DNA of 64,000 nt from Mycolicibacterium cosmeticum (GTDB lineage Bacteria > Actinomycetota > Actinomycetes > Mycobacteriales > Mycobacteriaceae), in NCBI RefSeq assembly GCF_000613185.1, contig NZ_CCBB010000003.1:124001-188000 (forward strand), written 5' to 3'. Positions within the stretch are counted from its first letter, which is position 1. The number at the start of each line of letters is the position of its first letter. Shown piece after piece: positions 17,962 to 29,644 of this stretch. The notes beneath the pieces are model-generated. The model was not told where the DNA came from and searched no databases. It saw only the letters and a program-made list of their open reading frames with translations. The position numbers and the translations under genes are program-made.

Positions 17962-18872
17962 CAGAAGTAACCCTCTCGCTTGCGGTCTTCCATGGCCGCC
18001 ACGGATGTACGGTCATCGGCCCGGGTCTCGCCCCGTTCGGAGACGGTGGCCGCCGAGATCTCGGCGATCACCCCGTCGATGGTGGTGGCGGTGGACCGCA
18101 CCGCGCCGGTGATGGTGAGGTCGCCGACGGTGCGGTAGCGCACCCACTCGACGGCGGCCTTCTCGTCACCGGTCGGCTGCGTGTACTCCGACACCGCGAG
18201 CAGGATGCCGTCCCGCTCGAACACCTCGCGTTCGTGGGCGAAGTAGATCGACGGCAGCTCAAGGTTTTCCAGTTCGATGTAGCGCCAGATGTCGATCTCG
18301 GTCCAGTTCGAGAGGGGGAACACGCGGACCTGCTCACCCTTGCGGATGCGGCCGTTGTACAGCGACCACGGCTCGGGCCGTTGGGCCCGCGGGTCCCACT
18401 GGCCGAACTCGTCACGGAAGCTCAGGATGCGTTCCTTGGCACGGGCGCGTTCCTCGTCGCGCCGGGCTCCGCCGAACGCGGCGTCGAAACCGCCGGCCTC
18501 CAGCGCGTCGAGCAGGGTGCGGGTCTGTTGCCGGTTGCGGGAGGCGCCGGGGCCGGGATCGGCCACCCGGCCGCTGTCGATGGTCTCCTGCACCGAGCCG
18601 ACGAGCAGCTTGTGACCCTGGCCGGTGGTGCGCCGGTCCCGGAACTCGATGACCTCGGCGAAGTTGTGCCCGGTGTCGACGTGCAGCACCGGAAAGGGCA
18701 GCGGGAGAGGCCGGAAGGCCTTCTCCGCCAACCGGAGCAGCACGATGGAATCCTTGCCTGCGGAGAACAGCAGCACCGGGCGCTGCAGTTCGGCCACCAC
18801 CTCGCGGATGATGTGCACCGCTTCGGCCTCCAGCAGCCGTAGCTCGTCGACGTGGACGGTGTCGGTGGTCAT
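17961..18872 (-). CDS. cysD: CysD, sulfate adenylyltransferase small subunit
   Basis: PP-loop ATP pyrophosphatase-type subunit, 303 residues, that forms APS from ATP and sulfate together with CysN. The PP-loop SAGKDS is at residues 37-42. Conserved blocks [22 protein letters not shown] and [21 protein letters not shown] are present. The chosen ATG 18872 lies in the stf0 stop (ATGA); the open frame upstream is antisense-like shadow of stf0. The stop overlaps the cysNC start in the same way, so stf0-cysD-cysNC is a translationally coupled trio. Confidence 0.96.
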
Positions 18873-19678
18873 GTCGGCAGTCCTTCCCGGTGCGCATCCG
18901 CGCGGTAACGGTCGACCCATTCGTCGGATCGCTGATCGGCCTGGCGTTCCAGTACCGGCTGCGGCGCCAACCGCGGGTCCAGGCCCAGTTGCTCCAGCAC
19001 GGTGGCCACCACGGTGGTGAGGTTGCGCCACAGATACGGGTAGGAGACGTCGATCGGTTCCACGCCTTCCTCGGCGAACCAGTTGCGCCAGCCCTCTTCC
19101 TGGGCGCGCAGCAGTTTCACGACATGCGCGATGCCACCGGCGTGGTATTCGGCGCGGGCATCGCGCACCGGGTCGGGCCGCCCGCGCCACACCCGGGTCT
19201 GCACCGCCCGCCAGAACGACACCGCCTGGGACACCACGTCGGGCCGGTAGACGTGGATCAGTACCGGGTCGCTGCCCACCACATCGCGGATGGCGGCCAG
19301 CAGCCCGTCGCCGGAGCGGTTCGGTAGATCCTTGGCCCGGTCCAGCAGCAGCGGCGTCTGGTTCCACATCAGCTTGCCGCCCCACACCCCGTTCGGGGTG
19401 CGCCCGACGGTCTGGATGTAGTCGCGCCAGATCTCGGCGGGCGCCAGGTCGGGTTTGCCCTCGACCAGCGGGTCGAGCAGTCGCAGGATCGACTCGTCGG
19501 TGACATCGGCGAACCACTCCCGCGGCTGCGGCGACATGCTGGTGGTGGGCAGGTACTGGAAGAACTCCTGCGGCTCGCCGGCCACGCCCGTCGCGCGCAG
19601 CGATTCCACCAGCAGCGTGCTGCCGCTGCGCTGCGAGGCGAGGACCAGATACGCCGTGGGTGCCGTCGGTGAAGCCAT
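18869..19678 (-). CDS. stf0: Stf0-family trehalose 2-sulfotransferase
   Basis: Cytosolic PAPS-dependent sulfotransferase, 269 residues, closely matching M. tuberculosis Stf0 (Rv0295c), which sulfates trehalose at the 2-position as the first step to sulfolipids. The PAPS-binding motif SQRSGSTLL is at residues 15-23. GEPQEFF contains E38, the position of the proposed catalytic base (E36 in the M. tuberculosis protein). Other conserved blocks are [12 protein letters not shown] and [20 protein letters not shown]. No Shine-Dalgarno is seen; a TAGGCT hexamer 7 bases before the ATG suggests a leaderless transcript. It overlaps cysD by 4 bases. Confidence 0.95.
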
Positions 19679-19741
19679 GCGCGAGAGCCTAACGGGTGCG
19701 GTTATCTGCTGCTCAGAGGCATTTTTTACTCATGGTGAGCA

Positions 19742-21136
19742 TTAGTCTTGCCCGCTGCGTTCGCGGTCGACGCCGCGGTCGGCCGCGATGCCCGAGCGGC
19801 TGGTGGCGGGGCGGCCGTGGATGCTCAGATACGTCTGGGTGTAGCGCTCTGAGATGCGGGTACCGGCGAAGTCCGACGGGATGACGTCATTGGTCTTATG
19901 TCGCCAGTCGTCGAGTTTCAGGGCGAGCTCCCCGGCGAGCGCCTCGGCGGCGAGCACATCGTCACCGGAAGTGTTCTCGGTGAGCAGATTTCGGCTCTCG
20001 GCGGGATCGGCGGTGAGGTCGTAGAGTTCGCGCGCCGGCCGCGGTGTGGTGACCCGAGGCCCGACGGCCTGCCCGGGTGGGCTGTCGGCGATGTCCCACG
20101 GCAGATCCAGCAGCGGTCGCGGCGCGTAGTTCTCGATATAGCTGTACTCCTTCGTCCGGATCGCGCGGATCGGATCGAAGGAGTCGTGGAAGGTCTTGGT
20201 GGTGTAGACCTCGGTGCGGACCTCGTCCTGCGCCGCCCCGCGCAGATTGGCGGCATGCGAAAGGCCTTGCACCGCTTCGGGGATCGGCACCCCGAGTAGG
20301 TCGAGCAGGGTGGGGGTGAGGTCGACCCCGCTGAACAGGTCGTCATAGATCCGGGGGGCGATGTTCGCGTCCCGTGGCGGGCGCACGATCAGCGCGATGC
20401 CGGTGCCCGCGTCGTACAGCGTGGACTTGGCGCGCGGCAGCGCGGGCCCGTGGTCGGTGAGGAACACCACCCAGGTGGTGCGGTCCAGACCGGTCTCGGC
20501 GAGCGTGTCCAGCAGTTCGCCCACCGCGGCGTCGGCCACCGTGATGGACCCGTAGAAATCGGCGAGGTCCTGACGGATGTCGGGCGTGTCCGGCAGATAG
20601 CCCGGCACGGCCACCGCGTCGGGATCGGCCGGGTCGTAGCGTTCCGGCGGGTAGGGCCGGTGCGTCTCGAAGAAGCCGGTGGTGAGCAGGAACGGCGTGC
20701 CGGTCGGGTCGGCGGTCCGCCGGCGCAGCCAGTCCACCGCCCGCTCGACGACGTATTCGCAGTACGAGTTGGACACGTCGAACTCGTCGAAACCCAGCCG
20801 CGCGGGATACGACGTCTCGTGCTGCATCCCGAACAGGGCGGTGTGCCAACCGGATTCGGACAGCAGGGCAGGCAGGGTCTGCACGTCCGCGCGGTACTCC
20901 CAGCCGTGGTGGGCCAGGCCGAGCAGTCCGTTGCTCTGCGGATACCGGCCGGTGAACAGCGACCCGCGCGACGGCGAGCACAGCGGGGCGGTGGCATGCG
21001 CCCTGGTGAACAGGATGCCTTCGGCGGCCAATCGGTCCAGCCGCGGGCTGTCGACGTCGGTGTGCTGGTAGGCGCCGAGGTAGCGGCCCAGGTCGTGCCA
21101 GTGCACGAACAACACGTTGGCGCGGGGGCCGGTCAC
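19742..21136 (-). CDS. Sulfatase (formylglycine-dependent, arylsulfatase superfamily)
   Basis: Sulfate ester hydrolase, 464 residues. GTG 21136 (VTGPRANVLFVHWHDLGRYLG) is preferred over the longer open frame to 21301 because AAGGA lies 7 bases upstream and the remaining N-terminal residues look non-coding. The CSPSR signature (residues 53-57) carries the cysteine converted to formylglycine by a sulfatase-activating enzyme. A TDHG motif supplies metal ligands. There is no signal peptide, so the enzyme is probably cytosolic. It lies 63 bases upstream of stf0 in the same direction, the same neighbour as in M. tuberculosis (Rv0296c). The substrate is unknown; sulfated trehalose is a tempting guess only. 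Confidence 0.9.
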   Translation of the reverse strand: MTGPRANVLFVHWHDLGRYLGAYQHTDVDSPRLDRLAAEGILFTRAHATAPLCSPSRGSLFTGRYPQSNGLLGLAHHGWEYRADVQTLPALLSESGWHTALFGMQHETSYPARLGFDEFDVSNSYCEYVVERAVDWLRRRTADPTGTPFLLTTGFFETHRPYPPERYDPADPDAVAVPGYLPDTPDIRQDLADFYGSITVADAAVGELLDTLAETGLDRTTWVVFLTDHGPALPRAKSTLYDAGTGIALIVRPPRDANIAPRIYDDLFSGVDLTPTLLDLLGVPIPEAVQGLSHAANLRGAAQDEVRTEVYTTKTFHDSFDPIRAIRTKEYSYIENYAPRPLLDLPWDIADSPPGQAVGPRVTTPRPARELYDLTADPAESRNLLTENTSGDDVLAAEALAGELALKLDDWRHKTNDVIPSDFAGTRISERYTQTYLSIHGRPATSRSGIAADRGVDRERSGQD

Positions 21137-21209
21137 AGGAAGTCCTTCATCGGAGGTACAGGCAACATCGTGAACCGCGGTTCGGCAACCCTTTCGTTCA
21201 CCGAGATGA

Positions 21210-21935
21210 TCACTTCCAGGCGAACACCGGTTGTTCGAGATCGTCGACGCGGTCGGGTCTGCCCTCCAGGCCCAGCCAGCGCAGCTGTAACAGGACGGCA
21301 CCGGTCGGCGCGTGGATCAGGTCGTTGCCCAGCGGGATCTGCACCACCGGTCGCGGGCTTTCCGGGATGCTGATGTAGCGCGGTGAATCGTCGCGCAGCA
21401 GCTGGTGCAGGCCCACCCGGTAGGCGGCGACCACCTCGGCGGGTTGTGGCCGCAGTTCCAGCCGCCCGCCGCCCCACATCACCACGGGGGTGATGACGTA
21501 CCCGGAGCGGGTCGGATAGTCGTCGAGCAGCCCGAGCACCGACGAGCCGGGCAGCTCGACGCCGACTTCCTCATGGGTCTCGCGCAGCGCCGCGTCGACC
21601 GCTGTCTCGCCGGGGTCCAGGCGCCCGCCGGGCAGGGCCCATTGCGCCGCATGGGAATTGAGCCGTGCCGCGCGCCGGCACAGCAGGAAGGCCGCGCCGC
21701 CGGACACGTCGACCATGCGCCCGTCCAGACCGGCGTCGGGCATCGGCCGGCCCGCGATCCACTCGTCGACGGGGGCCGGATCCACCCGGTCCTCGCCGAG
21801 TTCGGAATCCACCAGCACGATCGCGACCGCGGCGTGCCGCTTGGTCGGGTCGGTGATATCCCGCCGGTCATGCCCGGCCAGGTTGGCCCTGATCCGCTCC
21901 CGCAGCTCCGCGTCGTAGCCGATCGTCGCCGTCAC
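21210..21935 (-). CDS. NUDIX hydrolase (CoA pyrophosphatase-like)
   Basis: 241-residue NUDIX protein. The complete 23-residue Nudix box spans residues 104-126, with G104, E110, R118-E119 and E122-E123. The context (ALPGG before the box, long flanking N- and C-terminal regions) resembles actinobacterial CoA-diphosphatase-like enzymes, but substrate assignment is inference. The GTG start overlaps the stop of the upstream GntR gene (GTGA), so the two are co-translated. The link with a CoA-transferase operon under the same regulator makes a CoA or acyl-CoA substrate plausible. Confidence 0.85.
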   Translation of the reverse strand: MTATIGYDAELRERIRANLAGHDRRDITDPTKRHAAVAIVLVDSELGEDRVDPAPVDEWIAGRPMPDAGLDGRMVDVSGGAAFLLCRRAARLNSHAAQWALPGGRLDPGETAVDAALRETHEEVGVELPGSSVLGLLDDYPTRSGYVITPVVMWGGGRLELRPQPAEVVAAYRVGLHQLLRDDSPRYISIPESPRPVVQIPLGNDLIHAPTGAVLLQLRWLGLEGRPDRVDDLEQPVFAWK

Positions 21936-22636
21936 GAGGTGCGGAGCAGCGCGACGTCGGACACCATCCGGATGTGTTCGGCCATCGCCCGGCCGGCACC
22001 GACGGGATCCTGCCGGCGCACGGCATCGGCGATCTTGCGATGCCCTTCCAGCGATGCGCGCGGGCGCTCGGACTGCGACAGCGACTCGATGCGTGTCTCG
22101 CGGACCAGTTCGGCGATCTCACCCATCAGCCGGGCCAGCAGCGGGGAGTGGGCGGCGGCGGTGATCGCGGCGTGGAAATGTTCGTCACCGGACACCCCGC
22201 GCTCACCGTCGGTGATCTCGGACTCCATGATCGCGAGCGCGTCGTCGATGGCGGCCATCTCTGCCTCGCTGCGGCGCGCCGCGGCCAGCTCGGCGAGTTT
22301 GACCTCCAGCGCCTCGCGCGCCTCGATGACCTCGGGGAGCCGGTCGGCGTGCTCACGCAGGGCGCGGACGGCCGCATCCTCGACCGGGCGACGGACCAGG
22401 ACGGCGCCGTCGCCGTGCCGCACCGACAGGATGCCCTGCACCTCCAGGGCGACCAGGGCCTGGCTCAGCGAGGCCCGGCTCACGCCGAGCTGAGCGGCCA
22501 GTTCCCGTTCCGGTGGCAACCGCTCGCCAGGCTGCATATCGCGGTCCGCCATGTGCTTGCACAGCTGTTCCACGATGACCTCGTAGAGCCTCGGTCGGGC
22601 TACCGGGCGAATTTGCTCAGCCACTGGGTCACTCAC
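21932..22636 (-). CDS. FadR-subfamily GntR transcriptional regulator
   Basis: DNA-binding regulator, 234 residues. GTG 22636 (SDPVAEQIRPVARPRLYEV) is chosen because GGAACGGAGT precedes it; the frame is open to 22969 but that part is antisense to the transporter. The winged helix lies at about residues 12-75, including LPPERELAAQLGVSRASLSQAL, and an FCD-type effector domain follows (about 85-225). It is divergent from the MatC-like carrier. Two related palindrome-like elements in front of the carrier and of the CoA-transferase operon are its likely operators. MatR of rhizobial malonate clusters is of this family. Confidence 0.9.
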   Translation of the reverse strand: MSDPVAEQIRPVARPRLYEVIVEQLCKHMADRDMQPGERLPPERELAAQLGVSRASLSQALVALEVQGILSVRHGDGAVLVRRPVEDAAVRALREHADRLPEVIEAREALEVKLAELAAARRSEAEMAAIDDALAIMESEITDGERGVSGDEHFHAAITAAAHSPLLARLMGEIAELVRETRIESLSQSERPRASLEGHRKIADAVRRQDPVGAGRAMAEHIRMVSDVALLRTS

Positions 22637-22697
22637 ACTCCGTTCCTTCGAGCCAAGGATAACTGCCGTGGCAGCATGATCTCGGGCACATCTGGGG

Positions 22698-22760
22698 TTG
22701 ACAGTGACCTGTTTCACTGTTTCACTGCCTAGTGACTTAGTGGCTAGGCCAATTAGCCAC
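22698..22760 (+). promoter_or_regulatory. Promoter and operator of the MatC-like gene
   Basis: A consensus -35 TTGACA at 22698-22703 is followed by an operator-like region. The inverted repeat GTGGCTA (22740-22746) / TAGCCAC (22754-22760) has a 7-base spacer. The segment 22729-22754, read on the minus strand, matches 24277-24302 at 20 of 26 positions. It sits between the divergent GntR and carrier genes, consistent with autoregulation and control of transport. Confidence 0.6.
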
Positions 22761-22778
22761 AGGGAGAGTGGAGTTCCG

Positions 22779-24152
22779 ATGCCTGTAGAAGTGATTCCGA
22801 TCCTGGCGTTGGTCGTCATGTTCGTCGCCGCCACGGTCCTGCCGGTCAACATGGGTGCGCTGGGCTTCGTGGCGGCGTTCTTCGTGGGGACGATGGCCGT
22901 GGGTATGGACGCCGACAAGATCATCGGCGGTTTTCCGAGCAGCCTGTTCCTCACCTTGGTGGGCATCACCTACCTGTTCGCGATAGCGCAGAACAACGGG
23001 ACGGTCGACCTCCTGGTGCGGGCGGCGGTACGACTCGTCCGCGGCCGGGTCGCGTTGATCCCGTGGGTGATGTTCGGCGTCACCGGCCTGCTGACGGCGA
23101 TCGGGGCGCTCGGTCCCGCGGCGGTGGCCATCGTGGCCCCGATCGCGCTGGGCTTCGCCGCGCGCTATCGGATCCGGCCGCTGTTGATGGGGATGATGGT
23201 GGTGCACGGCGCGCAGGCCGGCGGCTTCTCGCCGATCAGCATCTACGGCGTCACCGTCAACAACATCGCCGCCAACGCGGGGCTGCACAACAGCCCGCTG
23301 ACCCTGTTCCTGGGCAGCTTGTTCTTCAACGCCGCCATCGGCGTGCTGCTGTTCGTCTTCCTGGGCGGGCGCGAGCTGATCGGCCGCAGCGTGCACGACG
23401 ACGACGAGACGCGGCCCGAGGGGGATACCGGTGCGGTCGGCGGCGGCCGGACCCCGGCCACCGTGATGCGCGGCTTCGGCACCACGACCACCAAGGCCCG
23501 GTCCCAGGCCGTCACCGCGGAGAACGCCCCGCCGCTGGCGACGGCGGTCAAGGCGATCACCTTCGACCAGATCCTCACCCTGGTCGGCCTGGCCTCGCTG
23601 GCGGTGTTCGCGCTGATCCTCGACCTGGACGTCGGTTTCGTGTCCATGACCGTCGCCGTCGTCCTCGCGCTGGCCTCACCCAAGGCGCAGAAGGGCGCCA
23701 TCAACCAGATCAGCTGGTCGACGGTGCTGCTGATCGGTGGTGTGCTGACCTTCGTCGGCGTGCTGCAGGAGGCCGGCACGGTCGAATGGGTGGGCAACGG
23801 CGTCGCGGCGCTCGGCGCGCCGTTGCTGGTGGCCCTGCTGCTCTGCTACATCGGCGCCATCGTCTCGGCCTTCGCATCCTCGACGGCGATCCTCGGCGCC
23901 ACGATCCCGCTGGCGGTGCCGTTCCTGATGGCCGGCGAGGTCGGGGCGGTGGGCGTGATCGTCGCCCTGTCCATCGCGTCGACCATCGTCGACGTCAGCC
24001 CGTTCTCGACGAACGGCGCACTGGTGCTGGCGAACGCGCAGGGCATCGACCGGGACGCGTTCTACAAGCAGATCCTCAAGTACAGCGGGCTCGTCGTGGC
24101 GGTCGGGCCGTTCATCGCCTGGGCGGTGCTCGTCCTCCCCGGGTGGTTATGA
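22779..24152 (+). CDS. MatC-like dicarboxylate (malonate-type) carrier
   Basis: Integral membrane transporter of the ion transporter superfamily with a MatC-like N-terminus, 457 residues and about 10-12 hydrophobic segments. ATG 22779 (MPVEVIPILALVVMF) follows AGGGAGAG; the upstream open frame to 22698 contains the operator and is rejected. A hydrophilic cytosolic loop (about residues 205-260) splits the two halves. Rhizobial MatC imports malonate. The neighbouring CoA-transferase and carboxyltransferase fit uptake of malonate or another short dicarboxylate, but the substrate is inferred from family and context. A hairpin follows the stop, separating it from the next operon. Confidence 0.82.
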   Translation: MPVEVIPILALVVMFVAATVLPVNMGALGFVAAFFVGTMAVGMDADKIIGGFPSSLFLTLVGITYLFAIAQNNGTVDLLVRAAVRLVRGRVALIPWVMFGVTGLLTAIGALGPAAVAIVAPIALGFAARYRIRPLLMGMMVVHGAQAGGFSPISIYGVTVNNIAANAGLHNSPLTLFLGSLFFNAAIGVLLFVFLGGRELIGRSVHDDDETRPEGDTGAVGGGRTPATVMRGFGTTTTKARSQAVTAENAPPLATAVKAITFDQILTLVGLASLAVFALILDLDVGFVSMTVAVVLALASPKAQKGAINQISWSTVLLIGGVLTFVGVLQEAGTVEWVGNGVAALGAPLLVALLLCYIGAIVSAFASSTAILGATIPLAVPFLMAGEVGAVGVIVALSIASTIVDVSPFSTNGALVLANAQGIDRDAFYKQILKYSGLVVAVGPFIAWAVLVLPGWL

Positions 24153-24172
24153 CCGCATGACACCGGCCGGCG

Positions 24173-24202
24173 GCGGCGACCACACCAGCGTGGGGTCGCC
24201 GC
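24173..24202 (+). terminator. Hairpin after the MatC-like gene
   Basis: Inverted repeat GCGGCGACC (24173-24181) / GGTCGCCGC (24194-24202) with a 12-base loop, 20 bases past the carrier stop and 44 bases before the TTGACA of the next operon. No U-tract. Its position favours termination of the carrier transcript. Confidence 0.5.
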
Positions 24203-24245
24203 TTCCTGCTGCCCGGAAAATGGCGCTGAGCTGCACGGATGACTC

Positions 24246-24302
24246 TTGACAGCGGTGCGGACGCGATGCTGAAATGAATTGGCTAGGCCACTAGGTCACC
24301 AA
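24246..24302 (+). promoter_or_regulatory. Promoter and operator of the CoA-transferase operon
   Basis: TTGACA at 24246-24251, then a palindrome-like element at 24277-24302 (core TTGGCTAGGCCACTAGG) shared in inverted orientation with the element at 22729-22754. In both promoters the element begins about 25 bases downstream of the -35 hexamer, so a bound regulator would cover the start region. GGAG before the ATG at 24321 is the ribosome-binding site. Confidence 0.6.
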
Positions 24303-24320
24303 TCCATAGGAGTCGCGCTG

Positions 24321-25523
24321 ATGGCAAGCACACTGAATACGACGGGTCGCACCGGTCCGCTGAACGGGACCGTGGTGGTCGACCTCACCAGGGCGCTGGC
24401 GGGTCCGCACGCCGCGATGATGCTCGGCGATCTCGGTGCCGACGTCATCAAGGTCGAGAGCCCCAAAGGCGGCGACGACACGCGCGGCTGGGGCCCGCCG
24501 TTCGTCGAACCCGCCGGCGCCGAGCGCGAGTCGACCTACTTCCTGTGCGCCAACCGCAACAAGCGCTCCATCACCCTGGACCTGAAGACCGATGACGGCC
24601 GCCACGCGCTGGCGGAGATGGTCGCCAAGGCCGACGTGCTGATGGAGAACTTCCGCACCGGCGTCCTGGACCGGCTGGGCTTCTCACCCGAGCGCCTGGC
24701 CGAGCTCAACCCGCGCCTGGTGATCCTGTCGATCAGCGGGTTCGGTCACGACGGCCCGGAAGGCGGCCGAGCCGGCTACGACCAGATCGCCCAGGGCGAG
24801 GCCGGCCTGATGTCGTTCACCGGTTCGGGTCCCGACGACGTGCAGCGAGTGGGTGTCCCGATCGCGGATCTGCTGGCCGGCATGTACGGCGCGTTCGGGG
24901 TGCTGGCCGCGCTCCGGCAGCGCGACCGCACCGGGACGGGCACGGTGGTGCGCACCTCGCTGCTGGCCAGCGTCGTCGGTGTGCACGCGTTCCAGGGCAC
25001 CAAGTGGACGGTCGCCGGCGAGATCGGCGAGGCCCAGGGCAACCACCACCCGTCGATCTGCCCGTACGGCCTGTTCCCGACGGCCGACGGTGCGGTGCAG
25101 ATCTCGGTCGGCAGCGAAGGTCTGTGGCACCGGTTCTGCGCGGGGTTCGGCGTGGACCCCGACACCGAGGGCATGGCCACCAATCCGCAGCGGGTGGCCA
25201 ACCGGTCGGAGGTCATCGCCTTGGTCTCCAAGCTGTTCGCCGGGTACGACACCACCTCACTGCTGCGGTTGCTCGACGAAATCGGTGTTCCGGCAGGGAA
25301 AGTCCGCAATGTCCGGGAGGTTTACGAGTGGGAGCAGACCCGGTCGCAGGGACTCCTGGTCGACGTCGAGCACGCCACCCTGGGCCCGGTCACGCTGCCG
25401 GGGCCGCCGTTGCGTTTCTTCCGGCCGGACGGCACCGAGGTCACCGAGACCCGGCATCTGGCACCGCCGGTCCTCGGCGCGGACGAGGACCTGGTGCGCG
25501 CCTGGCTCAAGGAAGCGGTCTGA
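24321..25523 (+). CDS. Class III (CaiB/BaiF family) CoA-transferase
   Basis: 400-residue family III CoA-transferase that moves CoA between acyl groups without free acyl-phosphate. ATG 24321 is preferred over the in-frame start at 24279, which lies in the operator. Recognisable segments: VVVDLTRALAGPHAAMMLGDLGADVIKVE near the N-terminus (split here into known blocks), NRNKRSITLDLKTDDGR, GYDQIAQGEAGLMSFTG, and VGVPIADLLAGMYG, with the Asp at the catalytic position of the family. The stop overlaps the next ATG (TGATG). Context suggests it activates an imported dicarboxylate such as malonate to its CoA ester; the CoA donor is unknown. Confidence 0.88.
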   Translation: MASTLNTTGRTGPLNGTVVVDLTRALAGPHAAMMLGDLGADVIKVESPKGGDDTRGWGPPFVEPAGAERESTYFLCANRNKRSITLDLKTDDGRHALAEMVAKADVLMENFRTGVLDRLGFSPERLAELNPRLVILSISGFGHDGPEGGRAGYDQIAQGEAGLMSFTGSGPDDVQRVGVPIADLLAGMYGAFGVLAALRQRDRTGTGTVVRTSLLASVVGVHAFQGTKWTVAGEIGEAQGNHHPSICPYGLFPTADGAVQISVGSEGLWHRFCAGFGVDPDTEGMATNPQRVANRSEVIALVSKLFAGYDTTSLLRLLDEIGVPAGKVRNVREVYEWEQTRSQGLLVDVEHATLGPVTLPGPPLRFFRPDGTEVTETRHLAPPVLGADEDLVRAWLKEAV

Positions 25524-27043
25524 TGCGCCGGCTGTCCGCGCGTGAGGTGCTCGACATCGTCGCCGACGCCGACAGCTTCGAGTGCTGGGACGCGCCGATC
25601 CCCGAGTACGCCGTGGATGCCGGCTACGCCGAGGAACTCGCGGCGGCCAGGAGCAGGACGGGTCTCGACGAATCGGTCACCACGGGTGCGGTCACCATTC
25701 GCGGCCGCCGGGTCGTCGTCCTGGTGAGTGAGTTCGGGTTCCTGGCCGGCTCCATCGGCGTCGCGGCGGGGGAGCGGCTGGTCACCGCCATCCACCGCGC
25801 CACCGCCGAGGGGTTGCCGCTGCTGGCCCTGCCCACCTCCGGCGGTACCCGGATGCAGGAAGGCACGGTGGCCTTTCTGCAGATGGTCAGGATCACCGCC
25901 GCGATCACCGCGCACAAGGCGGCCCATCTGCCCTATCTGGTGTATCTGCGGCACCCCACCACCGGCGGTGTGTTCGCATCCTGGGGGTCACTGGGACATC
26001 TGACCGTCGCCGAGCCGGGCGCACTCGTCGGTTTCCTCGGACCGCGGGTCTACGAGGCGCTCTACGGCGACCGCTTCCCGGCCGGCGTGCAGACGTCGGA
26101 GAACCTGCAGGCGCACGGCCTGATCGATGCCATCCGCCCGCCCGAACAACTCGGCGAGATCGTCGACCGCGCCCTGCGCATCATGACCGACAGCCCGCGC
26201 AGTTGCCCGCACGCGGTGGACGGACCGGACTGGGAGGTCGACGACGTCCCCGCCTGGACCTCGGTGCTGGCCTCCCGCCGCCGCGATCGCCCGGGCGTGC
26301 GGGAACTGCTGTTCCACGCCGCCGCCGACGTGCTCCCGCTCAACGGCACCGGGCAGGGCGAAGCGGACCCCGGACTGATCCTGGCGCTGGTGCGCTTCGG
26401 TGACATGCCCTGCGTGCTGCTCGGGCAGGACCGCAGCGGTCAGACCCCGTTGACCCCGCTCGGTCCCGCGGCGCTGCGTGAAGCGCGACGCGGGATGCGC
26501 CTGGCCAACGACCTTCGGCTGCCGCTCGTCACCGTCATCGACACCGCCGGGGCCGCGCTGTCCAAGGACGCCGAGGAAGGCGGGTTGGCCGGGGAGATCG
26601 CTCGCTGCATCGCCGACATGGTCGATCTGGACACCCCGACGGTGTCCCTGCTGCTGGGCCAGGGCACCGGGGGCGGGGCGCTGGCACTGGTACCGGCCGA
26701 CCGGGTGCTCTCGGCTCAGCATGCGTGGCTGTCACCCCTGCCGCCCGAAGGTGCCAGCGCGATCGTGCACCGCGACGTGGAGCATGCCCCGCAGATGGCC
26801 GTGCGCCAGGGCATCCGCTCCCTGGATCTGTGCCGCGCCGGGATCGTCGACCTGATCATCCCCGAACTGCCCGATGCCGCCGACGAGCCGCGGCAGTTCT
26901 GCGAGCGCGTCGGCGCCGCGCTGCACCGCGCGCTGAGCGAACTGATCGCCCAGGACGCCGACATGCGGCGTATCGCGCGCGGCAAGCGCTTCAACCGGGT
27001 GGGACCCGTCCCGCCGGCCGGTGCGCCCCGGACCGGCCCGTGA
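25523..27043 (+). CDS. Fused AccD/AccA-like carboxyltransferase
   Basis: 506-residue protein with two crotonase-fold halves. The first (about 1-260) resembles bacterial AccD: GGTRMQEG near residue 107, LRHPTTGGVFASWGSLGHL, and AEPGALVGFLGPRVYE, but it lacks the Cys4 zinc finger of AccD. The second (about 270-480) resembles AccA: GQDRSGQTPLTPLG, LVTVIDTAGA, and GQGTGGGALAL near 380. No biotin carboxylase or biotin carrier gene is nearby, so a biotin-independent decarboxylase role, as for MdcD/E-type malonate decarboxylase subunits, is possible. The ATG overlaps the CoA-transferase stop and the stop overlaps the next GTG. Substrate unproven. Confidence 0.82.
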   Translation: MRRLSAREVLDIVADADSFECWDAPIPEYAVDAGYAEELAAARSRTGLDESVTTGAVTIRGRRVVVLVSEFGFLAGSIGVAAGERLVTAIHRATAEGLPLLALPTSGGTRMQEGTVAFLQMVRITAAITAHKAAHLPYLVYLRHPTTGGVFASWGSLGHLTVAEPGALVGFLGPRVYEALYGDRFPAGVQTSENLQAHGLIDAIRPPEQLGEIVDRALRIMTDSPRSCPHAVDGPDWEVDDVPAWTSVLASRRRDRPGVRELLFHAAADVLPLNGTGQGEADPGLILALVRFGDMPCVLLGQDRSGQTPLTPLGPAALREARRGMRLANDLRLPLVTVIDTAGAALSKDAEEGGLAGEIARCIADMVDLDTPTVSLLLGQGTGGGALALVPADRVLSAQHAWLSPLPPEGASAIVHRDVEHAPQMAVRQGIRSLDLCRAGIVDLIIPELPDAADEPRQFCERVGAALHRALSELIAQDADMRRIARGKRFNRVGPVPPAGAPRTGP

Positions 27044-27348
27044 CAATGCTGTCGTTCCTGGTGACGCTGGAGGCGCGGCATGGCCGGGAGGCCGACGTCG
27101 CGGCCGTTCTCCGGGAAGCCAACAAGCTGGTGGGTGCCGAACCGGGTGCCCATGTCTGGTTCGGATTCCATTACGGGGGAACGACGTTCGGGATCTTGGA
27201 TGCCTTCGAAACCGATTGCGAGCCGCACGCGCGGCTGCACAGCCGGGTCCGGACGGCGGTCGAGGCCCATGCCGAACTGTTCGCCACGCCGCCCGTCATC
27301 ACCATCGTGGACGGGCTGGACGCGCCGCTGCCGCGCGGTCCGGTCTAG
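27040..27348 (+). CDS. Small ABM-fold (antibiotic biosynthesis monooxygenase-like) protein
   Basis: About 102 residues from GTG 27040, overlapping the carboxyltransferase stop (GTGA), or 100 from ATG 27046. The pattern MLSFLVTLEARHGREADVAAVL and WFGFHYGGTTFGILDAF fits the dimeric alpha-beta barrel of ABM/YgiN-like proteins. No cofactor motif is expected in this family. Its place as last gene of the CoA-transferase operon suggests a role with that pathway, unknown. Its TAG and the TAG of the convergent gene share the four bases CTAG (27345-27348). Confidence 0.75.
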   Translation: MTMLSFLVTLEARHGREADVAAVLREANKLVGAEPGAHVWFGFHYGGTTFGILDAFETDCEPHARLHSRVRTAVEAHAELFATPPVITIVDGLDAPLPRGPV

Positions 27349-27827
27349 GGGTGGTACGGCACCCCGACGGCCCGGAACACCCACTCCGGCGGCACGTCAT
27401 AAGCCAGGTGCAGGGCGGGCAGCCGCGCCAGGACCTCGGCGGGCAGCGGCTCCTTGTAATGCAGCGACAACTGTCCGCTGCAGCGCGGGTCCACCCGGCC
27501 GACGTCGACCTCGATGTGCAGCCCGGATTCGGAGATGTCGGCGGCCACCATCCCGGATTGCGGTGCATCCCAACGCTGGTCGATCACCCGGCCGGCCAGC
27601 TTCGGTACCGAGGACAGGGTGCCCAGCACGCGCTGTGAGGTCAAGACCAGCGACCCGGTGTAGCTGCTGACGCTGCCAGCCGAGCGCAGCCCGGGGACCC
27701 GGCCGGCGAAGTGCCGGGTGACGGCCACGTATTCGGCCAGGTGGATGATGCCCTCGGCTTCCACCGCGGCACGCAGATCGTCGGGCAGCTTGCCGATGCC
27801 GAACAGCTTGCGCAGGAAGACGGCCAT
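27345..27827 (-). CDS. Conserved mycobacterial protein, Rv0307c-like
   Basis: 160 residues from ATG 27827 (MAVFLRKLFGIGKLPDDLRAAVE); the open frame continues nine codons upstream into a hairpin, so the shorter start is preferred. No signal peptide or membrane helix; beta-rich pattern with SYTGSLVLTSQRVLGTLSS in the middle, reminiscent of a PH-like domain (tentative). It resembles by length and neighbourhood the unknown M. tuberculosis protein Rv0307c. Function unknown. Confidence 0.75.
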   Translation of the reverse strand: MAVFLRKLFGIGKLPDDLRAAVEAEGIIHLAEYVAVTRHFAGRVPGLRSAGSVSSYTGSLVLTSQRVLGTLSSVPKLAGRVIDQRWDAPQSGMVAADISESGLHIEVDVGRVDPRCSGQLSLHYKEPLPAEVLARLPALHLAYDVPPEWVFRAVGVPYHP

Positions 27828-27846
27828 GGGCACACAGTACGACGAC

Positions 27847-27889
27847 TTGTGCACGTTCCGTAACGCTCGGCGTCACGGAACGTGCACAA
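27847..27889 (-). terminator. Long hairpin after the NCS1 permease gene
   Basis: Perfect 15-bp arms TTGTGCACGTTCCGT (27847-27861) and ACGGAACGTGCACAA (27875-27889). After one mismatch the stem continues as ACGC/GCGT around a 3-base loop, giving about 19 paired bases. It starts 12 bases past the permease stop (reading leftward) and lies just upstream of the Rv0307c-like gene. Terminator is the simplest reading; no U-tract. Confidence 0.65.
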
Positions 27890-27900
27890 ATCACCCGCGA

Positions 27901-29553
27901 TCAGGCGGGCAGCACGTGCTCCCCGGTCTTGTCGGTGCTCAGGCACAGCGAGCAGATGAACCCGTTGCCGGTCGCCGATGCGATCATGTCGGGCCGCTCG
28001 TAATCGTGATGGCAGACAAGGCATTTCAGGTGGTCGGCGGCGGGGTTGCCGTGTTCGTCGAACATCGGCAGGTCGATGCCGTCGTCGGTGCGGCGCAGGT
28101 AGTACTTGCCCTTGGTGGCGATCGCGATGATCGGCGGCAGCACCACCGCCAGGCCGATGGCGACCAGCGGCGAGTACGGCCGGATGGCCGCGCCCAGGCC
28201 ACCGAAGAAGGCGATGACCGACAGGCCCGCGGCGATCAGCATCGAACCGAAGCCGACCGGGTTGAACGCGTAGAGCATGCCGCGGCGGAACTCCGGCACC
28301 TTCGGCGACAACTTCAGCAGGTACTTGTTGAACACGATGTCCGAGGCGACCACCACCACCCAGGCCATACCGCAGTTGGCGTAGAAGCCCAGGATGGTGT
28401 TCAGGAAGTCGAACATGTTGGCTTCCATCAGGATCAGCGCGATCAGCAGGTTGACCCCGAGGAACACCAGCCGGCCCGGGTAGGTCTTGGTGACCCGGGT
28501 GAACGAGTTGGTCCAGGCCAGCGAGCCCGAGTAGGCGTTGGTCACGTTGATCTTGATCTGGCTGATGACCACCAGCACCACGGCCAGGGTCATCGCCAGC
28601 CAGCCCGGCAGGAAGTTCTGGTAGATCTCCAGGAACTGGTGCACCGGCTGGTTGGCGATGCCGGCGCTGTCGGCGACGTTGGCGATCAGGTACACCGCCA
28701 GGAACAGGCCGACGATCTGCTTGATGGCGCCGAAGATCACCCAGCCCGGGCCGGCCAGGAACATCCACGTCCACCAGCTGCGCTTGTTCTCCGGGGTCTT
28801 CGGCGGCATGAACCGCAGGTAGTCGTTCTGCTCGGCGATCTGGGCGATCAGCGACAGGCACACGCCGGCGGCCAGCAGGGTCGAGCCGATGTCGAAGCCC
28901 TGCACCCCGTTCTCGCCCTGATAGGCGAAGAACTGGCCGACCGATTCGGGATGGCTGATCACCAGGTAGATGAACGGTGCCACCATCAGGATCAACCACA
29001 GCGGCGTCGTCCACACCTGCAGGGTGGACAGCACTTTCATGCCGTAGATGACCAACGGGAAGATGATCAGCGTCGACACCGCGTAGCCGAGCCACAACGG
29101 GACGCCCAGCCCGAGCTTGAGGCCCTGGGCCATGATCGAGCCCTCGAGGGCGAAGAAGATGAAGGTGAACGTCGCGAAGATGACGTTGGTGACCACCGAG
29201 CCGTAGTAGCCGAATCCGCTGCCGCGGGTGACCAGGTCGAGGTCGATGTTGTAGCGCGCCGAGTAGTAGGCCACCGGGAAACCGGTCAGCATCACCACGA
29301 CGGCGAAGATGAGGATGCCCCACAGCGCGTTGGTGGTCCCGTAGGAGATGCCGATGTTCGCGCCGATCGCGAAGTCGGCCAGGTAGGCGATGCCACCGAG
29401 GGCCGAGATGCCGACCACCCTGGTGGACCACTTGCGGTAGCTGCGCGGGGCAAAACGCAGCGTGTAGTCCTCGAGGGTCTCTTTGGTGGCGGTGAGCCGG
29501 TCATCCGGGTCGACGGCGGCGTCGGCCGGCTCGTCCGTGAGCTCTTGTGTCAT
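27901..29553 (-). CDS. NCS1-family permease with C-terminal zinc-ribbon-like tail
   Basis: About 550 residues, around 12 membrane helices, of the nucleobase:cation symporter-1 (cytosine/purine permease) superfamily. Start ATG 29553 (MTQELTDEPADAAV) is preferred to an in-frame TTG at 29562. Core segments: GIAYLADFAIGANIGISYG and ITQIKINVTNAYSGSLAW-like helix 8 region. Unusually, the last 60 residues are hydrophilic and hold CLVC and CSLC pairs separated by 19 residues, a possible zinc knuckle facing the cytosol. Substrate cannot be named. Divergent from a PAP2 phosphatase gene; followed by a strong hairpin. Confidence 0.85.
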   Translation of the reverse strand: MTQELTDEPADAAVDPDDRLTATKETLEDYTLRFAPRSYRKWSTRVVGISALGGIAYLADFAIGANIGISYGTTNALWGILIFAVVVMLTGFPVAYYSARYNIDLDLVTRGSGFGYYGSVVTNVIFATFTFIFFALEGSIMAQGLKLGLGVPLWLGYAVSTLIIFPLVIYGMKVLSTLQVWTTPLWLILMVAPFIYLVISHPESVGQFFAYQGENGVQGFDIGSTLLAAGVCLSLIAQIAEQNDYLRFMPPKTPENKRSWWTWMFLAGPGWVIFGAIKQIVGLFLAVYLIANVADSAGIANQPVHQFLEIYQNFLPGWLAMTLAVVLVVISQIKINVTNAYSGSLAWTNSFTRVTKTYPGRLVFLGVNLLIALILMEANMFDFLNTILGFYANCGMAWVVVVASDIVFNKYLLKLSPKVPEFRRGMLYAFNPVGFGSMLIAAGLSVIAFFGGLGAAIRPYSPLVAIGLAVVLPPIIAIATKGKYYLRRTDDGIDLPMFDEHGNPAADHLKCLVCHHDYERPDMIASATGNGFICSLCLSTDKTGEHVLPA

Positions 29554-29644
29554 GGTCAGCAAACTTATGGGGGCTATGTTTCCGCCGTATCACCGTGGCG
29601 TTGCCCTCAGGCTGCGTCCAGCTGTGGGTGGTAGGACTGATCTG

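Follow-up and report, generated by a model that had tools for sequence, protein, structure and literature searches.

A conserved actinobacterial gene module in Mycolicibacterium cosmeticum, probably for CoA-based malonate catabolism, and its linkage to barbiturase

The rhizobial mat system of malonate use consists of MatA, MatB, MatC, and MatR. In the malonate decarboxylase system Mdc (MdcABCDEGH), a transferase swaps acetyl for malonate on a thiol, and an AccD/AccA-like enzyme performs the decarboxylation (PMC5534430). In the oxidative pathway of pyrimidine breakdown, barbiturase and ureidomalonase yield malonic acid and urea (PMC3758960), and the excerpts of the published account contain no CoA-transferase or carboxyltransferase step. 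Here, we present an analysis of a locus in a 64,000-nucleotide stretch of DNA from Mycolicibacterium cosmeticum (contig NZ_CCBB010000003.1, positions 124,001 to 188,000; hereafter, the window), which lies on contig C3 of a 6.46-Mb genome in 5 contigs (G000). The locus encodes a MatC-like carrier, a class III CoA-transferase (CoAT), and a fused AccD-AccA carboxyltransferase (CT), with a FadR-type GntR regulator encoded divergently to matC (Table 1). These genes are a real, conserved module. We think it probable, with some reserve, that the module serves CoA-based malonate catabolism, with import by MatC, formation of malonyl-CoA by CoAT, decarboxylation by CT, and control by the GntR protein. 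In excerpts of the open-licence PubMed Central literature, we found no description of this module or of its link to barbiturase.

In the scheme that we propose, MatC would import malonate; CoAT would move CoA from acetyl-CoA (or succinyl-CoA) onto malonate to give malonyl-CoA; and CT would decarboxylate malonyl-CoA to acetyl-CoA, perhaps without biotin, with the acetyl-CoA product priming the next round. CoAT and CT would form an Mdc-like pair in which free CoA replaces the acyl-carrier protein, and we propose that the module follows the logic of Mdc on free CoA but is built from other families. If true, this malonate cycle runs without a dedicated carrier protein. In contrast to Mdc, which uses the acyl-carrier protein MdcC, the module has a class III CoA-transferase in place of MdcA, and neither MdcB, MdcG, or MdcH nor an acyl-carrier protein with its loading genes is encoded among the neighbors scanned; such a set is encoded elsewhere in the genome (L195). 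With the rhizobial mat system, the module shares a MatC-type carrier and an FCD-GntR regulator, as judged by Pfam, and malonyl-CoA as its proposed intermediate; however, the CoA-transferase replaces the MatB synthetase, and the AccD/AccA-like enzyme replaces MatA.

Much of this gene inventory had been put forward in a preliminary description made from the sequence alone, and it was borne out by a domain scan with Pfam and NCBIfam of the ten proteins encoded from 18869 to 29562. Pfam confirmed the families of the carrier, the regulator, the CoA-transferase, and the fused carboxyltransferase. No MCD or AMP-binding match was found among the ten proteins, and no biotin carboxylase or biotin carrier was found among them either. 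A genome-wide search for MCD (MatA) was also empty; the control genomes gave none either, so we make no claim of absence. CT lacks the zinc ribbon, as had been noticed: its residue 3 aligns to residue 56 of AccD. CoAT qualifies as a class III CoA-transferase by its CoA_transf_3 domain and by Asp183, whose conservation reaches at least 98% across 94 sequences, including that of the window; this residue is presumably the catalytic Asp, as in formyl-CoA transferase. The last three genes had been described as overlapping by 1 to 4 bases; CoAT and CT do overlap by one base (TGATG, 25523), whereas CT and the 102-aa open reading frame (ORF) that follows overlap by 4 bases only with the GTG start at 27040 and not at all with the ATG start at 27046.

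To assess conservation, relatives of CT were searched in one genome per species, and the best 80 of 575 matching loci were compared. The co-occurrence that the preliminary description had named as a check is evident in this set: CoAT lies immediately 5' of CT in 59 of the 80 loci, MatC lies immediately 5' of CoAT in 33, and in 16, MatC has a GntR gene of the same cluster as that in the window divergent to it. A second sample comprised 296 genomes of the class, searched genome-wide; here, CoAT and CT are neighbors (<300 bp) in 44 genomes and share a strand in 44 of 45 pairs; moreover, 22 of the 51 MatC_N genes in these genomes are located within 6 kb of CT, and 19 of these also have CoAT there. 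The order MatC-CoAT-CT is far beyond chance. As a separate observation, the second locus of Rhodococcoides fascians (L007:7799-10518) contains matches to CoAT (84%) and CT (80%), and only a piece of CoAT is called as a gene; the CoAT-CT pair may be broken here.

Several related loci without MatC (L014, L020, L034, L051, and L061) carry genes for carbamate kinase and for a ring-opening amidohydrolase of the AtzD/TrzD family beside CoAT-CT. When compared with the Protein Data Bank (PDB), the ring-opening protein of L020 matches "Barbiturase" 5hwe with 681 bits, and cyanuric acid hydrolases follow with 314 bits or less; it also exceeds the NCBIfam cut-off for cyanuric acid amidohydrolase (476 versus 360 bits). 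The barbiturase identity is based on the PDB match of this one protein, the others being split by their identity to it; a Gln described as a barbiturase marker (PMC4051656) was left unused because its column could not be placed in our alignment. The family is present in 68 of the 296 class genomes, and among the 69 loci around its members (L120-L188), a cut-off of 60% identity to the L020 protein separates 63 barbiturase loci from the remaining 6. As minimum counts, since some stretches end at contig ends, the 63 barbiturase loci contain carbamate kinase in 55 cases, CoAT (≥55% identity) in 34, CT in 16, both CoAT and CT in 13, hydantoinase/caprolactamase-like genes in 32, and MatC in 1. In the 6 other, cyanuric-hydrolase-like loci, neither carbamate kinase, CoAT, CT, hydantoinase-like genes, nor MatC was detected at the same cut-offs; one of them (L166) has a CoA-transferase at 38%. 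L172 unites both contexts in the single run GntR-MatC-CoAT-CT-carbamate kinase-barbiturase.

The association also holds at the level of whole genomes. CoAT (E≤1e-110) is present in 60 of the 63 genomes with a true barbiturase versus 16 of the 233 without (odds 271, p ~1e-43, uncorrected for relatedness), and by genus, in 27/28 versus 10/77 (p ~1e-15). In G125, one of the three true-barbiturase genomes missing CoAT, a partial CoAT adjoins the barbiturase gene (L169). CT is less tied to true barbiturase (44/63 versus 50/233 genomes), partly because mycobacterial core copies of CT, described below, were counted. Among the 16 genomes that have CoAT but no true barbiturase, MatC accompanies CoAT or CT at the module in 11. 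Because barbiturase and ureidomalonase together give malonic acid, we infer that malonate, whether made intracellularly from pyrimidines or imported by MatC, is the common denominator of the two contexts, and a malonate role of the module is the best-supported reading. The end product of the oxidative pyrimidine pathway would be the substrate of CoAT-CT, and the genes of the two are linked in many actinobacteria; in these, CoAT-CT would dispose of malonate freed from pyrimidines via the barbiturase pathway. If true, a malonate-using step following this pathway in actinobacteria would have been named.

The barbiturase loci contain further genes. In L020 (12866-16670), the barbiturase and carbamate kinase genes have homologues of AllFGH (oxamic transcarbamylase) as neighbors; in the way that AllFGH phosphorolyse oxalurate (PMC11326118), these homologues may convert a barbiturase-made ureido acid to carbamoyl phosphate and malonamate. 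Homologues of CapA-CapB (hydantoinase/oxoprolinase-like) adjoin carbamate kinase and barbiturase in L125, L126, L127, L130, L143, and others (32/63) and are possible candidates for the enzyme that cleaves ureidomalonate. In 12 barbiturase loci, of which 11 are without CT in the stretch, CoAT is accompanied by a gene for carbonic anhydrase (Pro_CA; e.g., L143:5297-6031). Finally, a molybdenum-hydroxylase domain, a CoxG-like protein, and an amidase are encoded 5' of a barbiturase cluster holding CoAT and CT (L160:1-3070); a uracil-to-barbiturate oxidase and a malonamate amidase are possible identities.

Within the window, the operator-like palindrome TGGCTAGGCCA is found twice in 64 kb, where 0.04 matches are expected, and the longer form WTTGGCTAGKCCA, the only form searched genome-wide, has a single match in the whole genome, 5' of CoAT. 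The relaxed form TGGC[TC]AG[GT]CCA, searched on both strands of 157 loci (2.84 Mb), gave 30 sites, of which 28 are directly 5' of GntR/matC or CoAT and 2 are inside genes; one of the 28 (L007) precedes no called gene but is located 66 bases 5' of the CoAT match. The palindrome is absent from many module-bearing loci. This pattern is the signature that would be expected of a local regulator targeting matC and CoAT-CT, and the GntR protein of the window is likely that regulator; it would probably bind the two sites and repress matC and CoAT-CT. Separately, a mycobacterial locus (L201:8133-15111) contains a CoAT-CT operon with the same palindrome and without MatC, downstream of which lie a regulator-like ORF, an amidase that clusters with the amidase in some barbiturase loci, and a sodium symporter, a gene set that suggests malonate amide as food.

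CT fits the AccD3-type architecture, in which the AccD and AccA halves form one chain of ~500 aa without a zinc ribbon. The closest named relative of the window CT is that of Mycolicibacterium canariasense (97%); a second copy in the same genome is 62% identical (G000:C1:2000853-2002346), and within the genus, 90 of 98 genomes carry one or more CT matches (E≤1e-60). In a tree of 60 sequences, rooted at the midpoint and so not giving the order of origin of the two forms, the core copies, eight sequences that lack CoAT and of which seven come from related genera and one from the window genome itself, group in a single separate clade with support 100/99, and the window CT falls outside this core mycobacterial clade. 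We take the core copies to be AccD3 (Rv0904c), and CT, to judge from the tree, is a paralogue of AccD3: the two share the fused AccD-AccA chain, whereas the core copies are adjoined by neither CoAT nor MatC. In a published pull-down, AccD3 did not bind any of the partners used, and its role as a carboxylase subunit was doubted by the authors (PMC4347857). In M. smegmatis, fatty acid and mycolic acid synthesis proceeded undisturbed after deletion of accD3, whether singly or together with accD6; the same report lists MSMEG_2169 as an extra accD3-like gene and states that AccD3 function awaits further study (PMC5311964). A decarboxylase role would fit both the pull-down and the deletion results, although only by analogy. 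A bolder proposal, which we hold only tentatively and with more doubt than conviction, is that a free-CoA malonate cycle with a biotin-independent CT completes oxidative pyrimidine breakdown in actinobacteria as its missing final stage and that AccD3 likewise decarboxylates malonyl-CoA, braking the pool that feeds lipid synthesis instead of carboxylating. If true, an enzyme of the carboxyltransferase fold gains a likely catabolic role, and AccD3 function becomes approachable through a close paralogue with informative neighbors.

Several observations weigh against a malonate catabolic module. The MatC context is not exclusive: 29 of the 51 MatC_N genes in the class genomes are near neither CoAT nor CT. 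L172, which joins the MatC and barbiturase contexts, is without the palindrome, and excerpts of the open-licence PubMed Central literature contained no experiment on a module member. Furthermore, the window genome has a canonical mdc operon (L195:4604-10608; G000:C2, ~685-691 kb), so the module is not its only malonate route. In this operon, MdcA, the acyl-carrier protein, the fused MdcD-MdcE, and MdcG score over their NCBIfam cut-offs, an MdcB-like synthase exceeds the cut-off of one model for it, and MdcH narrowly misses its own (267 versus 298 bits). The genome's true MdcDE passes the models for both Mdc subunits, beta and gamma (TIGR03133, 332 bits; TIGR03134, 274 bits), whereas CT passes neither (41 bits, cut-off 278; and 26 bits, cut-off 237). 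Given that mdc already serves malonate, the substrate of the module may instead be a relative of malonate, such as methylmalonate or another short dicarboxylate, or, in the barbiturase clusters, CoA esters of ureidomalonate or malonamate. CoAT falls in none of the named NCBIfam subfamilies tried, the best model being succinate-glutarate CoA-transferase (326 bits, cut-off 750), followed by mesaconate (241 versus 700) and oxalate (222 versus 522); that these best-scoring named models act on different small dicarboxylates points in this direction. The amidase and hydantoinase-like genes of the barbiturase clusters also leave the order of steps open. However, the barbiturase pathway is reported to end in malonic acid (PMC3758960), and malonate most simply fits the MatC and barbiturase contexts together, and we consider a different substrate distinctly unlikely.

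Two further points of the same kind concern the chemistry of CT. In structure searches, its fold matches biotin-dependent enzymes well; no malonate decarboxylase was among the matches listed, which is not evidence of absence. By alignment, the Ser of the MdcE glycine motif corresponds to an invariant Gly (G383) in the CT family, and we take the Ser to be Ser142, which matters in MdcE (PMC5534430). CT could depend on biotin: as a carboxyltransferase or transcarboxylase, it would hand the carboxyl group from malonyl-CoA to a biotin carrier with its gene elsewhere in the genome, instead of direct release. In favor of this, its fold and both halves match biotin-dependent AccD/AccA and the PCC/12S enzymes, and the glycine motifs are largely kept in both halves. 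On the other hand, the homologue AccD3 bound none of the partners tried in the pull-down (PMC4347857), and the ten neighboring proteins scanned include no biotin subunit. Among the carboxyltransferases of the same genome that were compared in the active-site alignment (L083 and L086), the PGxxPG loop of L086 is xGxALS in the CT family; this loss is a weak argument because L083 also lacks PGxxPG. Four further rows of this alignment (L081, L082, L084, and L085) look as if translated in a wrong frame and were excluded. Because the alpha subunits with which mycobacterial carboxyltransferases work can be encoded at a distance, the missing biotin carrier gene in the neighborhood is weak evidence for biotin independence; the AccD3 pull-down is more telling, although it concerns a homologue. 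Overall, we regard a biotin-dependent CT as unlikely. Biotin-free decarboxylation of malonyl-CoA by CT is plausible by analogy to MdcD-MdcE, a biotin-independent relative that decarboxylated malonyl-CoA in vitro (PMC5534430).

A last difficulty is that CoAT can occur without CT. Twenty-one CoAT genomes had no CT match at E≤1e-130, and of the 20 searched again, 9 had no CT at all at E≤1e-12. Among the other 11, one has a CT split over two contigs, its first piece immediately following CoAT; most of the chain is matched at 50% in one genome and at 36-38% in seven; and the last two show 23-24% matches only. In the CT-less genomes, malonyl-CoA must have another fate, e.g., use in lipid synthesis or decarboxylation by other means. 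These genomes would also be accounted for if only CoAT were catabolic and CT were a traveling anabolic or regulatory enzyme, e.g., an acetyl-CoA carboxylase subunit; similarly, 39 of the 94 CT genomes are without CoAT, many of them mycobacteria with a core copy only. However, three of the 51 MatC_N genes adjoin CT at sites that lack CoAT, which ties CT to the carrier, and the accD3 deletion, alone or with accD6, left M. smegmatis fatty and mycolic acid synthesis undisturbed (PMC5311964); we consider a purely CoAT-based catabolism quite improbable. The likelihoods that we assign to these alternatives overlap and are not meant to sum to one.

Table 1. Features of the module and its flanks, in window coordinates
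Feature	Coordinates	Strand	Details
NUDIX hydrolase	21210..21935	-	PF00293, 58 bits; 4-base overlap with GntR gene; not a conserved part
GntR/FCD (FadR-subfamily) regulator	21932..22636	-	234 aa; GTG start 22636; divergent to matC; Pfam FCD 94 bits, GntR 50 bits
Operator-like palindrome TGGCTAGGCCA, copy 1	22741..22751	+	38 bases 5' of matC
MatC-like dicarboxylate carrier (matC)	22779..24152	+	457 aa; PF07158 (MatC_N) 207 bits, PF03600 96 bits
Palindrome TGGCTAGGCCA, copy 2	24280..24290	+	41 bases 5' of CoAT
Class III CoA-transferase (CoAT), proposed malonate CoA-transferase	24321..25523	+	400 aa; PF02515 (CoA_transf_3) 382 bits
Fused AccD-AccA carboxyltransferase (CT), AccD3-like, proposed malonyl-CoA decarboxylase	25523..27043	+	506 aa from ATG 25523; Carboxyl_trans 186 bits and ACCA 151 bits in a single chain
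102-aa ORF (earlier termed "ABM")	27040..27348	+	Operon member, not a conserved part; no Pfam match at E≤1

For the GntR protein, the Pfam scan began at 22540 downward, and the GTG start was chosen by similarity to relatives. The malonate-type catabolic system of the preliminary description is supported as a module, mainly via the barbiturase linkage and the shared palindrome; it had also included the NUDIX hydrolase and the 102-aa ORF, and this membership was not upheld. Each of the two recurs in only one of the 80 related loci (L011), and on this basis they were rejected as conserved parts. The ABM fold attributed to the small ORF found no backing in Pfam, and the NUDIX protein scores 66 bits against the CoA pyrophosphatase model, for which the cut-off is 134.

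Two observations concern the flanks of the module. Upstream (18869-21301), a gene for trehalose 2-sulfotransferase (NCBIfam, over cut-off) adjoins a sulfatase gene (Pfam) and a gene that we presume to be CysD-like. Downstream (27901-29562), a 553-aa cytosine/purine permease-like protein with a weak Pfam match is encoded, which is found in 1 of the 80 related loci (L011); a link to pyrimidines is possible.

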